Positions 30,976 to 38,780 of a stretch of DNA of 64,000 bases are shown here, piece by piece. This stretch comes from Chelativorans sp. YIM 93263. GTDB taxonomy: Bacteria; Pseudomonadota; Alphaproteobacteria; Rhizobiales; Rhizobiaceae. Within the stretch, counting starts at the first letter, position 1, and each line of letters starts with the position of its first letter. A program made the position numbers and the translations under genes. The DNA lies in the NCBI RefSeq assembly GCF_028767125.1, contig NZ_JAKCWP010000009.1, positions 1 through 64,000 of the forward strand. The letters are read 5' to 3'. A model generated the notes under the pieces. The model did not search any database, was not told where the DNA came from, and was given only the letters and a program-made list of their open reading frames with translations.

Positions 30976-31632
30976 CTAGTCGAATTTCTCGATTTGCGCA
31001 AGCGTGAGTTCCACCGGAACCTCGCGCCCGAACAGCGATGCAAGCACGCGCACTCCGCGAGAAGCGGCATAGCCCTCCAACACGCCGGTGAAATCGGCGA
31101 AAGGTCCGTCCTTGACCCGGACGGTCTCACCGATTCTGTAAGGCCGCGCGTTCTTCTTCTGATCGAACACACCGGCCTTCACCAACCCCATGAGTTTGTT
31201 CATCGTTTCATCGCTGATTGGGAAGGGGCCGCTCCCGCCGCCGAGGACGGCGCGAACCCCTTTGATCCCGAGTAACCCATGCCACGCTTCCGCGCTCGGC
31301 ACCGCTCTCACGAACACATAGCTGCGAAACACAGGTCGATGGGCGGCCCGCTTCTTCTTGCTGTGGAAAACAGTGCGCCATACGGTCTTAACAGGCGCCC
31401 AGGCCTCTAATCCCGAATCGTCCAGCTCCGCGACCACCTCGCGTTCAGGGCGATGAGCAACGCGGAGAACGAACCACCGGCGATCGTACTCCGCGCCCGC
31501 CGCAGCCTTCAGAAACCGTTCGTGCATCTTGCGCTTCTCGTCCGCCTTCCGTCCAGCTTCCAGCGCCCGATCGATGCTGATCGGTTCGGCCTCATTCAGC
31601 TGCTTTGCGCGCGTCGCCATCATTCGCCTCAT
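30976..31632 (-). CDS. Phage-encoded NusG paralogue (putative antiterminator)
   Basis: From ATG 31632 the protein has 218 residues. A charged helical N-terminal extension (1-50) precedes the NGN domain: WFVLRVAHRPEREVV (53-67), LEAWAPVKTVWRTVF and FRSYVFVRA. The KOW domain follows at 167-218: GETVRVKDGPFADFTGVLEG, then VLASLFGREVPVEL, close to bacterial NusG. It would bind RNA polymerase and change elongation. Being phage-borne and just upstream of the late genes, it likely acts like RfaH or lambda Q. The start overlaps the stop of the replication gene (ATGA). ATGs at 31623 and 31620 are alternatives. Confidence 0.85.
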   Translation of the reverse strand: MRRMMATRAKQLNEAEPISIDRALEAGRKADEKRKMHERFLKAAAGAEYDRRWFVLRVAHRPEREVVAELDDSGLEAWAPVKTVWRTVFHSKKKRAAHRPVFRSYVFVRAVPSAEAWHGLLGIKGVRAVLGGGSGPFPISDETMNKLMGLVKAGVFDQKKNARPYRIGETVRVKDGPFADFTGVLEGYAASRGVRVLASLFGREVPVELTLAQIEKFD

Positions 31633-32843
31633 CCTCGCTTGTCGGCCTTTCCGGCCTGTTTCACCGCTTCCTCGAATTCCGCCAGTCCCGCCGGTCCGCC
31701 GCGCGGGAAATAGACCACGCGCATGGCGCCGGGATCCGGCACCCATGGCCAGCCCCGCCGCTCGTGCTCCATCCGCCATGCCTCGTAGGTGTCCGAGCCG
31801 ACAGGCACGGCCTCCATCGTCTGGCAAAGCCGCTCCAGCTCCGGCGCCACATGCACGCCCTTCCTGTCGAGCGCCCACTGATGCATGGTGTTGATCTCCG
31901 GCCAGCCGGATTTCGCCTGCTGTTCGCGCCGGATATCGGCCTCGCTTGCCTGCCCGGTCTCGACCATGCGGCTTTGGAAGGCCGTCATCGGCCCCGGTGT
32001 CCGTGACGGTCCGTGCAAGAGCCGCTTCATCCGCGCGACTTGCCAGAGCGGCCCGAAGGGCTTGGCCTCCAGCGCTGCCGGTTTTTCCTCTTCCGGCTCC
32101 GGAACGTCAGCCCAGAGCCGCTCCCGGAAGTAGGTCGAAGGCGCCGGCGTGTGGCTCTTGCGCTGGGCCTTCAGCAGCTTCAGCCACTCGGGCAGCTTGC
32201 GCTCGGCCTCCGCCCGATCTTCCGCCGAAAGCGCAAACCACGCAGCCTTGGCCGGTTCTTTCGGCATCCCGGCAAAGCCCGGCCAATCCTTCACCAGCCG
32301 CCAAAAGGATTTCTCCACGGCTTTCGGGTCTTCCGGTTGGCTGTCTTCCCGCTCGCTCTCGCGCGCATCTCTCTCAATGGAGGGATCAAGGGAGGGGTCT
32401 GGAGGGGTTGTATGACATGCATTGTCACCCTTAGGTGTCTCAGCTGTCACCCTATCGGTGTCGCCCCTGTCACCCTTAGGCGCCTCATCTAAGGGTGACA
32501 CCGTGTCACCCTTAGCGCCAGCGGCCACGCGCTCCGCATAGGCATCCCACCCGTCTTTCGAAATCGCGGCCAGGACGTCCAGAACGAGGGCATATTCGTT
32601 CGTCGAGCGGCGTCCCTTGCCGCCCTCGCGAACGATCTTCAAGAGCCCGATATCGACGAACGCGCGTATCTCCCGCTGCACCTGGCGGCTGCTGCACTGC
32701 GCCGCGCGCGCCACGGTGGCGACGGCAGGGAAAATACGGCTGCCGTCATCTTCACAAGCGTCGATCAGCTTCAGAAGCACGAGCTTACGAATGCAGGTTC
32801 CCATGTCGGCGCGGAAGCCGGTCCCGAGCAGAAATGCGCTCAT
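31629..32843 (-). CDS. Phage replication initiation protein, O-like winged-helix
   Basis: The ATG at 32843 is preceded by GGGAGG and gives 404 residues. Residues 15-90 form a winged-helix DNA-binding domain (CIRKLVLLKLIDACEDDG, QCSSRQVQREIRAFVDIG, GKGRRSTNEYALVLDV), as in lambda O and rhizobial phage replication proteins. A low-complexity linker at about 110-140 is encoded by repeated DNA (see the iteron entry). The C-terminal half is charged, with Pro-rich joints, and is likely a helicase- or loader-binding part. No helicase loader gene is recognisable nearby, so host DnaC-like or other factors may be used. Confidence 0.75.
   Translation of the reverse strand: MSAFLLGTGFRADMGTCIRKLVLLKLIDACEDDGSRIFPAVATVARAAQCSSRQVQREIRAFVDIGLLKIVREGGKGRRSTNEYALVLDVLAAISKDGWDAYAERVAAGAKGDTVSPLDEAPKGDRGDTDRVTAETPKGDNACHTTPPDPSLDPSIERDARESEREDSQPEDPKAVEKSFWRLVKDWPGFAGMPKEPAKAAWFALSAEDRAEAERKLPEWLKLLKAQRKSHTPAPSTYFRERLWADVPEPEEEKPAALEAKPFGPLWQVARMKRLLHGPSRTPGPMTAFQSRMVETGQASEADIRREQQAKSGWPEINTMHQWALDRKGVHVAPELERLCQTMEAVPVGSDTYEAWRMEHERRGWPWVPDPGAMRVVYFPRGGPAGLAEFEEAVKQAGKADKRG
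32423..32515. repeat. Iteron cluster inside the replication gene, candidate phage origin
   Basis: Within 93 bp lie four direct copies of TGTCACCCTTAGG-like sequence at 32423, 32445 (variant), 32468 and 32504, spaced 22-36 bp, and one inverted copy CTAAGGGTGACA at 32489-32500. The inverted copy and the last direct copy form a perfect 12-bp-arm palindrome with a 3-nt spacer (32489-32515). They sit in the linker part of the O-like gene, as the lambda origin sits inside O. The initiator's winged helix would bind them. No AT-rich unwinding element is obvious next to them. Confidence 0.7.
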
Positions 32844-33007
32844 ACCACCACCTCCCGCTGGAGGAGGGTTCGCCGGGCGAATGGCACATGGGCAGCCGAC
32901 GAATGCTTCGCTCTCGTGGGAACTGTTTGCGCCCGAGCGCATTGAAGGCCCGCCGGTGCACTCGCGCCGTAAAAACGAATAACAATATCCAAGCGGGTAG
33001 AACCCCT

Positions 33008-33466
33008 ATGAATGACAAGCCATTTCCGCGGAGCGTCCGCGTCACGCTCCCAGGATCCACATGGACTGTTTCTTCGGCGTACCAGGCCCTTGAGTGCTTG
33101 CTCGGGCCGTGGCCCATCACCACGATTCCGGAGTACCGCTCCGCCGTCCGCGCCTGCCGCGATTGTTTGGACGGGCTGCGCACGCCAAAGACGGCTTTCA
33201 ACGCTTTCAAGAAGGCCTGTCGCGCCACCGAAGGGCTGAATGCCGACACGCGCGTGTCGCCTCAGCCCACGGTAAGCGAACGAGAACAGGAAGCCGAAGA
33301 GCTCAATATTTCCGCTCACGCTCATACCGCCGCAACCTCCGTGTCACAGGCGCGTTTACGCGCATGGCAAAAAGGGGATGGAAAAAGCCGCTCGCGGTCC
33401 ACGCCGGCAGATACGGCCATATCCGCTTCACGGTCGGCTCCGCTGTCCGCGCCGCCGAAATCCTGA
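33008..33466 (+). CDS. DUF982 protein, first of a plus-strand pair
   Basis: From ATG 33008 the 152-residue protein has the DUF982 pattern in its first 80 residues: SVRVTLPGSTWTVSSAYQAL, WP followed by YRSAVRACRDCLDGL, and a helix (TAFNAFKKACRATEG). DUF982 proteins are small, rhizobial and of unknown function. The last 50 residues overlap the next gene by 103 bp in another frame and may be non-conserved read-through. The gene is oriented against the replication genes on both sides, so it looks like inserted cargo. Confidence 0.7.
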   Translation: MNDKPFPRSVRVTLPGSTWTVSSAYQALECLLGPWPITTIPEYRSAVRACRDCLDGLRTPKTAFNAFKKACRATEGLNADTRVSPQPTVSEREQEAEELNISAHAHTAATSVSQARLRAWQKGDGKSRSRSTPADTAISASRSAPLSAPPKS

Positions 33467-33618
33467 TCGATCATTGGCCCGAGCGCGCGAAGCAAGGGCC
33501 GGAATACACCGAAGCGTGCCGCGTCTGCCTCGCCTGCCTGAGCGGCGAGTGCGATGCCGAGGCAGCGCGCAAGGCGTTCGTCGCCGCGGCGATGGAGGCC
33601 GATATCTTGGCTGACTGA
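33364..33618 (+). CDS. DUF982 protein, second of a plus-strand pair
   Basis: ATG 33364 starts an 84-residue DUF982 protein: HIRFTVGSAVRAAEILIDHWP, EYTEACRVCLACLSGE and AEAARKAFVAAAMEADILAD. It is nearer the family standard in length than its upstream partner, with which it overlaps out of frame. Two DUF982 copies in tandem suggest a duplication or a fused-then-frameshifted gene. It converges with the minus-strand gene 33621-34169, with a 2-bp gap. Confidence 0.75.
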   Translation: MAKRGWKKPLAVHAGRYGHIRFTVGSAVRAAEILIDHWPERAKQGPEYTEACRVCLACLSGECDAEAARKAFVAAAMEADILAD

Positions 33619-37240: not shown

Positions 37241-38368
37241 TCATTCCGCCACCTCAAAGCCCCAGGCGTCCCACCCCGGCCGAGGCGTGCGGCAGAAGAG
37301 CTCCAGCCGCGGTATGTCGGGATAGAGCCGCTCGATCGTCTCGGCAAAAAAGTCCGGCTTGGCCGAGTGCTTGCCCTTGCGCTCGCGATGGACCGTTTCC
37401 GGCTGTGAGCCGGGTAGGGGCGCTGCGATGTCGCCGCGCCGGCCGATCAGCAGCAGCTCGTGCCGGTCACGGCCCCAATAGCCGGAGCCGGCGACTTCCT
37501 TGTCCCAGATCCAGTGATGCACATAGGTGAAGCCGCAGGCCTCCATCACGCGAAGCGCATCCGGCAGCATCGGGTTCGTCGCCCAGCAGAAGAAGACAGC
37601 AGGAATGTCGCCGCCGATCAGATCGGTCAGCAGCGCGACGATGTCATCGGTCGTCATAGTCGGATAGTGGTTCTCCGCGCTTTTCTCGCGGCCCGTCACT
37701 TCCGAGCGAACGCCAAACTTCCAAGGCGGGTCCGCATAATAGACAGGATAGGCGCGATCGAGCTTGCCGGGCGCTGTCGCGGCGCCTTTCTCCGCGATCA
37801 TGGCCATATGCGCCAGGCGCACCGAGTGTTTGGCCTGCTGATCCTGGGCGCGAAGGTCCTTCGCGACCTTCATAAGTTCGCGCCGATTGCCGGCATCCGG
37901 CAGGAAGGCCGTCTTGATCGGCTTGCGGGCAGGGCGACTCTTTCCGTCTCGCCCTTCTACCTCTTCCAACTGCGGAATTTCCGCAGTTGATTCGAGGCGG
38001 CGGCGCACAGTTGCCACCGTCTTGTCATCTACCCCAAGCATAGCCGCGATTGCGCGCGAGGAAATTGAAGGCGTGTCTCGCAATTGGCCTTCAATGAGGT
38101 CGCGCTTCTGCGCACTCGTGAGGTGCCGGCGGGACACGTTGAGCTCGCGCGCAATCGTCCGCTTCTCCGGATCGCTCAGACCCTTGCGGACGAGGCGTGG
38201 CCAGTCGACGAGGCCGAGGCTCTCGCAGATCTGTACGCGGTGATGTCCGTCCAAGATATTGCCAGCGTCATCGTACTCGATCGGTACGAGCACGCCGTGT
38301 TCGACAATAGACGCTTCAAGAGCTGCATAGTCTTCCGTGGAGAGCGGCGGCAGGAGCTGATACTTCAT
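37241..38368 (-). CDS. ParB-domain / MT-A70 adenine methyltransferase fusion
   Basis: From ATG 38368 the 375-residue protein has a ParB nuclease-like N-terminal domain (LPPLSTEDYAALEASI, ILDGHHRVQICES 38-50), a HTH (about 98-125), and a C-terminal MT-A70 methyltransferase with DPPW (213-216), FFCWATNP and WDAWGF near the end. The likely reaction is N6-methylation of adenine in DNA using SAM. ParB plus MT-A70 fusions are found in phages and plasmids. The substrate site may be recognised through the HTH. The product might protect phage DNA from host restriction. Confidence 0.85.
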   Translation of the reverse strand: MKYQLLPPLSTEDYAALEASIVEHGVLVPIEYDDAGNILDGHHRVQICESLGLVDWPRLVRKGLSDPEKRTIARELNVSRRHLTSAQKRDLIEGQLRDTPSISSRAIAAMLGVDDKTVATVRRRLESTAEIPQLEEVEGRDGKSRPARKPIKTAFLPDAGNRRELMKVAKDLRAQDQQAKHSVRLAHMAMIAEKGAATAPGKLDRAYPVYYADPPWKFGVRSEVTGREKSAENHYPTMTTDDIVALLTDLIGGDIPAVFFCWATNPMLPDALRVMEACGFTYVHHWIWDKEVAGSGYWGRDRHELLLIGRRGDIAAPLPGSQPETVHRERKGKHSAKPDFFAETIERLYPDIPRLELFCRTPRPGWDAWGFEVAE

Positions 38369-38370
38369 CG

Positions 38371-38724
38371 CTAACTCATCCCCAACGCGGCTTTGTAAAG
38401 GTCGAGGATTGCTTCGGCTTCCTGCCGCTCTGCCACGTCCATCTTCCGCAGTTTGACGAGGGTGCGAACGGCCTTGGTATCGAAACCCATGGCCTTGCAT
38501 TCGGCATAGATTTCCTTGCGGTCGTCCGAGAGGGCGTCGATGTCTTCCTGCACCCGTTCGATACGCTCGATGAAGGCCCGCAGCTGCCCTGCTGCTACCG
38601 CCTGCGGACCACTCGCCTCTTCGCTCTCGGAGGCCAGCTTGGCACCGGCACGTTCCCGTGCAGGGCCGCGCGGCGCGTAGGGATCGTACTCGATGTTCGG
38701 CTCTCTCTCTTTCCCCTTGGACAT
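38371..38724 (-). CDS. GapR-like DUF2312 nucleoid protein, phage copy
   Basis: From ATG 38724 the 117-residue protein matches DUF2312/Gap[41 protein letters not shown] and [15 protein letters not shown]. GapR of Caulobacter is a tetrameric nucleoid protein that binds overtwisted DNA and stimulates gyrase/topoisomerase IV near replication forks. A prophage copy may do so for phage replication. The N-terminal 40 residues are unrelated to GapR and highly charged. Its start overlaps the stop of a mini-gene (TGATG), and it is followed by the methyltransferase 2 bp on. Confidence 0.85.
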
Positions 38725-38780
38725 CACGTCCCTCCAAGCCATTCGAGCGCATGACGATGGGATACCGTCAGCGCCGCCAT
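38724..38780 (-). CDS. 18-residue coupled mini-gene (tentative)
   Basis: The frame ATG 38780 to TGA 38724-38726 encodes an 18-residue peptide ([18 protein letters not shown]). Its start overlaps the stop of the upstream small membrane gene and its stop overlaps the DUF2312 start (both TGATG). It may be a leader that couples translation, not a functional peptide. It is supported only by its position in an unbroken chain of overlapping stop-start junctions. Confidence 0.35.

Follow-up and report, generated by a model that had tools for sequence, protein, structure and literature searches.

The window analysed here, the whole stretch of 64,000 nucleotides, carries a prophage with integrase, terminase, portal and major head genes, which also harbors on the reverse strand, at 31629-32942, a gene for an O-like replication initiator. 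As the longest open reading frame (ORF) this gene encodes 437 amino acids, and the product matches phrog_270 'replication initiation protein' (E 4.8e-48, profile positions 43-363 of 383) as well as, more weakly, other O-like families. Translation probably starts at 32843, with the Met of MSAFLLG located 33 codons inside the longest ORF, since residues 1-33 have a pLDDT below 50 and the alignment of close relatives begins at MSAFLLG or VSAFLLG. Directly downstream on the same strand lies a gene for a NusG-like antiterminator (30976-31587), a neighbour and not a part of the origin discussed below. A NusG-type neighbour is similarly annotated in four of the six phage regions that were fetched, none of which has an annotated origin in the initiator gene. 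Pfam and/or PHROGs scans of 26 distinct window ORFs named no helicase or loader. Elsewhere in the window, a single ORF at 37241-38752 presents both ParB-like and MT-A70 methyltransferase matches.

An AlphaFold2 model of the initiator, built from an alignment of 26 sequences, divides the protein into three parts. Residues 35-119 (32586-32840, reverse strand, as are the other parts) form a winged helix-turn-helix (wHTH) DNA-binding domain, whose recognition helix, according to the secondary structure of the model, spans residues 85-98 (32649-32690) and includes R86, Q89 and R90. The linker at residues 145-189 (32376-32510) is disordered, with a pLDDT below 50, and residues 200-437 (31632-32345) fold into a C-terminal domain with a mean pLDDT of 90.9 when modelled alone. 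The N-terminal part matched generic winged helices only in the PDB fold search, and its Pfam HTH_36 match (E 0.0036) lies under the curated cut-off. Since the fold search of the C-terminal domain in the PDB gave no match at E ≤ 0.001, its role as a helicase recruiter is presumed. Foldseek among viral models returned one match annotated 'Putative replication protein O' (E 5.4e-6). The NCBIfam search of the initiator gave no family and the PDB sequence search nothing better than E 0.051, while Pfam at E ≤ 0.1 gave HTH_36 and HTH_29 alone and no match to Rep_3, the family of iteron plasmid initiators.

The preliminary description had placed a cluster of four direct and one inverted repeats at 32423-32515, in the linker-coding part of this O-like gene, and had read it as an in-gene origin array; both the gene assignment and the cluster were confirmed, with three exact and one degenerate direct copies and one exact inverted copy. 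Sites 1 (32504-32515, that is 32515-32504 on the gene strand), 3 (32468-32479) and 5 (32423-32434) carry exactly CTAAGGGTGACA on the reverse strand, or TGTCACCCTTAG when read on the forward strand, and site 2 (32489-32500) is an exact copy of CTAAGGGTGACA inverted onto the forward strand. Site 4 (32445-32456, reverse strand) is degenerate and falls in another reading frame, with GATAGGGTGACA on the gene strand and TGTCACCCTATC on the forward strand, three mismatches to the 12-mer, and 23 and 22 bp to the neighbouring sites. The array is thus ordered as an inverted pair followed by three direct sites at 22-23 bp steps. A symmetric element is indeed present as had been described, but it is an interrupted palindrome of 27 bp and not one of 12 bp, formed perfectly by sites 1 and 2 (32489-32515; 13-nt arms around a 1-nt centre). 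A degenerate sixth site, inverted on the forward strand at 32410-32417, shows two mismatches in eight to the core and is better preserved in three viral relatives (L010, L011 and L013), and a further weak copy of the iteron lies at 32459-32466. At up to two mismatches the 12-mer has nine matches in the window, whereas 100 shuffles averaged 1.99 and reached 5 at most. Across the 4.25-Mb genome, sites 1, 2, 3 and 5 are the only exact occurrences of the 12-mer, and four places elsewhere differ from it by one mismatch. Array and disordered linker nearly coincide, since the array encodes residues 143-174.

For each gene, the best arrangement of five sites (plus, minus, plus, plus, plus) was scored with no motif supplied. 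The window gene reached a score of 4, whereas 300 synonymous-codon shuffles averaged 36 and never scored below 26, none of them approaching the observed value. Among the 41 long window ORFs, the initiator gene alone passed this five-site test, the other 40 failing in a control with three shuffles per ORF and the same margin of 8 as used for the relatives below. The copies are spread over two reading frames and both strands. Three of them translate as K-G-D, in line with the earlier suggestion that the repeats force a Lys-Gly-Asp linker; this holds for those three only, because site 4 stands in another frame and reads R-V-T, and site 2 is inverted and reads S-P-L. The array is under selection at the DNA level, as the computation demonstrates, and neither chance nor the coding of the linker accounts for it. 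The repetitive look of these linkers finds here its explanation: they are shaped by the DNA in which they are written.

Conservation of the spacing in related prophages had been proposed as a check, and it was found. Among 44 viral relatives collected by protein, the eight whose winged helix is of the same kind (L009-L015 and L019; best-segment identity 44-64%) all retain the five sites, with direct sites at 0, 36, 59 and 81 in L009-L014 and L019 and at 0, 30, 53 and 75 in L015, the inverted site standing each time beside the first. The 12-mer at up to one mismatch is absent from 36 of the 44. A changed winged helix with a changed iteron and an unchanged geometry was observed in L016 (CCTACCGGCA), L026 (AAGGTGGTGG), L048 (TGAACCGGAC) and L049 (CCGAGTCCAG). 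A first scan with the 12-mer at two mismatches gave mixed registers in distant relatives, and the motif-free five-site search was used instead; it gave no five-site array in L028 and L031, and what it returned for L064 stems from a run of N and is artefactual. Six isolated phages were tested, of which vB_MseS-P1, Labrenzia phage V1 and Rhizobium phage PPF1 are clear fits, Vibrio phage D77 is marginal, and phi3LM21 and Rivra do not fit. The isolated phage closest by its initiator protein infects Mesorhizobium.

The layout extends well beyond these relatives. Within a set of 83 non-redundant genes picked by protein alone, from which genes shorter than 600 nt, runs of N, helix gaps and identical wHTH domains were excluded, 52 exhibited a significant array and 31 did not. 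An array was called significant when its score lay at least 8 below the best of seven synonymous shuffles, a cut-off set after earlier results on relatives were available, and some of the 52 barely reach it (e.g., L226, L232, L234 and L276, the last with an odd register). Across the 52 arrays the direct sites stand 20-24 bp apart with many different iteron sequences, and the array starts at 0.23-0.75 of the ORF. Searched as a pattern, GGGTGACANNNTGTCACCC (the GGGTGACA form) was found in at least 120 viral stretches vs. one for a reversed-pattern control. Among these (at least 120), 120 loci were listed: the motif lay inside an ORF with this kind of wHTH in 95, whereas 23 had no wHTH match and two had a wHTH elsewhere. 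A stricter three-site pattern gave 20 stretches in named genomes, of which 19 lie inside such a wHTH ORF, the exception being an Atopobiaceae bin. By name, 13 of the 20 belong to Rhizobium or relatives, and the others include Methylotenera, Polaromonas, Brevundimonas and metagenome bins labelled Anaerolineae and Ignavibacteriales. The wHTH profile behind these counts was extended in four rounds on the very pool of loci to which it was then applied; in its first round, for which just nine sequences of the window family were used, it already matched 134 ORFs.

The iteron sequence follows not the C-terminal domain but the recognition helix, most of all at the positions corresponding to Q89 and R90. 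Over the 52 arrays, the iteron distance correlated with the recognition-helix distance (Mantel r 0.507, 0 of 2000 permutations), also when the rest of the wHTH domain was held constant (partial r 0.327, 0/2000). The rest of the domain tracks the iteron sequence as well (partial r 0.276, 0/2000) and common descent therefore contributes. In pairs with divergent domains, the largest column effects were those of Q89 and R90 (0.111 and 0.087), the best column outside the helix reaching 0.081. A hold-out was fetched by protein families only, from which domains of the earlier set, fragments shorter than 50 residues and the window itself were removed. Here, the GGGTGACA array occurred in three of five genes with an R-x-x-Q-R helix vs. 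none of 48 others (Fisher p 4e-4), and L315 combined a T-L-N helix with a CCGTGTC-type iteron, like L049 and L223. Neither Q89 nor R86 is required, since some carriers of GGGTGACA have I, M, T, L, K or R in the Q89 column and two of the five R-x-x-Q-R genes lack a GGGTGACA array. The two halves of the protein can moreover be told apart: L015 and L019 present the iteron of the window despite C-terminal domains just 33% and 27% identical to that of the window protein, and L016 and L026 have C-terminal domains 55% and 48% identical to it, yet different iterons. Such comparisons of sequences point to iterons that move together with the N-terminal domain. With a winged helix and its target sites in one gene, these loci form a natural data set from which the specificity of helix for DNA could be worked out.

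Directly after the array, just beyond the range covered by the preliminary description, lie three 12-bp units that read AACCCCTCCAGA, CCCCTCCCTTGA and TCCCTCCATTGA on the gene strand (32374-32409, reverse strand) and represent a candidate unwinding element; a period of 12 was also detected at 32374-32396. Together, array and units sit in the linker codons between the winged helix and the folded C-terminal domain. The units overlap the 36-bp segment with the highest pyrimidine content in the gene (0.75 vs. 0.44), and the element ends in a GAGAGAG purine tract (32367-32375, reverse strand) of a kind enriched after arrays, possibly through a constraint at the protein level. Neither a strong AT-rich tract in the window nor a large AT-rich region in the gene was found when sought: the AT content is 0.40 in the 40 bp after the array vs. 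0.35 for the gene, and the most AT-rich 40 bp of the gene (0.55 vs. 0.35) cover site 5 and the junction. Over the 96 GGGTGACA loci with enough flanking sequence, the AT content of the 40 bp after the array was 0.53 vs. 0.40 overall and exceeded the locus mean in 91, and the most AT-rich 40 bp began after the array in 35 vs. 4.5 expected. GAACC-like words spaced by 11-13 bp follow the arrays in 29 of the 52 genes, with 61 occurrences, whereas 100 synonymous shuffles averaged 31.6 and never exceeded 44. Of the 61, 48 are in frame, and protein constraint therefore contributes to these units. As strand-opening region, the tract after the array is the strongest candidate. DnaA boxes were considered as a further part of the origin and rejected: 31001-33500 holds three matches at up to two mismatches, none in the array, the best, at 31362, having a single mismatch to the consensus box.

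Taken together, we consider it very likely that the locus is a prophage replication origin of the lambda-O kind which lies within the very gene that encodes its initiator. The initiator would bind the five sites, the inverted pair as a dimer and the other three either as single domains or as dimers, and by analogy with lambda the resulting complex may strain and open the neighbouring 12-mer tract. The C-terminal domain could then bring in the host DnaB without a P-type loader of the phage. An operator, at which an autoregulator binds within its own gene and blocks transcription, with replication starting elsewhere, would equally show a winged helix with covarying sites; we nevertheless regard it as improbable, as the arrays lie inside the gene at the positions given above, a series of spaced sites with a compositionally altered tract after them is the layout of an origin, and the annotation of the family is replication initiation. 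Still less probable appears an array serving another phage function, i.e., partition or incompatibility, packaging or an mRNA hairpin. The gene for the large terminase subunit is located about 3.5 kb from the array and a transcript of the 27-bp palindrome could fold into a hairpin, but the iteron sequence and the recognition helix encoded by the very gene that contains the array covary, and a hairpin leaves the three spaced direct copies unexplained. The reading in which a repetitive Lys-Gly-Asp linker, or protein low complexity, gives rise to the repeats can practically be dismissed: the in-frame K-G-D copies and the in-frame GAACC units of relatives would fit, but the synonymous shuffles never came near the observed score, the frame differs at site 4 and the orientation at site 2, and relatives with other linker sequences keep the same DNA geometry.

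Origins inside initiator genes are already known from lambda, gene 38 of SPP1 and RepC, and one is proposed in the phage KIRK. In lambda, each iteron is an inverted repeat bound by a dimer of O (PMC5043065), and the O dimers on the iterons within the O gene are described to bend the DNA and open an adjacent 40-bp region with purines nearly all on one strand (PMC5043065, PMC7466680). The origin proposed here resembles the lambda ori, and that of Stx phages with their six iterons, in its position in the middle of the initiator gene and in the succession of repeated initiator sites and an unwinding region, as these are outlined in the same sources (PMC7466680, PMC5043065); the unwinding region of lambda is also strand-asymmetric in the account given there (PMC5043065). 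In both cases the sites are located inside the initiator gene between the DNA-binding and the C-terminal domains. On the contrary, the claim of the preliminary description that lambda has the same arrangement was not borne out, and lambda's exact arrangement was rejected for this locus: the lambda sequence has four 18-bp direct iterons, and lambda O fails the five-site geometry with a score of 37 vs. 36 for its best shuffle. Unlike in lambda, only sites 1 and 2 form a dyad, the three other direct sites being single, and a NusG-like gene, not a gene for a P-type helicase loader, lies directly downstream.

Similarly, gene 38 of SPP1, with oriL, is described to contain direct repeats bound by the product of that gene, a binding that is here predicted, beside an AT-rich unwinding element; unlike the present locus, SPP1 is presented there with a second origin and a separate loader, gp39 (PMC6316719). 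The repABC plasmids offer in RepC another origin within an initiator gene in Alphaproteobacteria, for which a large A+T-rich region and no iterons are reported (PMC3155836), whereas the present locus has iterons and a slight AT enrichment only. Iteron plasmids and the E. coli oriC with its 13-mers likewise combine initiator sites with short tandem strand-opening units (PMC5043065), but the initiator here is different and the candidate units are of 12 bp and pyrimidine-rich in the window and of the GAACC type in many relatives. For the Francisella phage KIRK, a lambda-like origin was proposed inside the replication gene fhv_0043 and described as AT-rich with four binding sites (PMC7924643); the text consulted does not compare geometry or specificity between phages. 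What appears to be new here is the five-site geometry, its spread with changing iterons and the relation between helix and iteron, none of which we found described in the accessible text of the openly licensed literature.

With clearly less assurance than for the locus itself, we lean towards the existence of a widespread class of phage origins with a fixed architecture (an inverted pair, three direct sites 20-24 bp apart and tandem unwinding units of 11-13 bp) placed in linker codons. The iteron word would be free to change with a few residues of the recognition helix, and the N-terminal cassette would move independently of the C-terminal domain. If so, one gene carries a DNA-binding protein together with its cognate sites, replication specificity becomes readable from sequence, and origins could be located in this way in many temperate phages and prophages.

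Other repeat layouts were encountered among the collected loci. The relatives L028-L030, L033-L047 and L050-L052 share the same C-terminal domain with an N-terminal domain unrecognised by the wHTH profile (one is a fragment without that end); many of them present CCGGCGCCGGTA-like linker units at 15-bp steps, and they are possibly another type of origin. L017, L020-L024 and L027 have seven GGTGACACC-like sites in an order unlike the five-site geometry. The 25 of the 120 listed loci (L080-L199) in which GGGTGACANNNTGTCACCC lies outside a recognised wHTH ORF are either shortened contigs or other users of the motif. In L248, TGAGCAGGGC units about 22 bp apart run on beyond the fifth copy.
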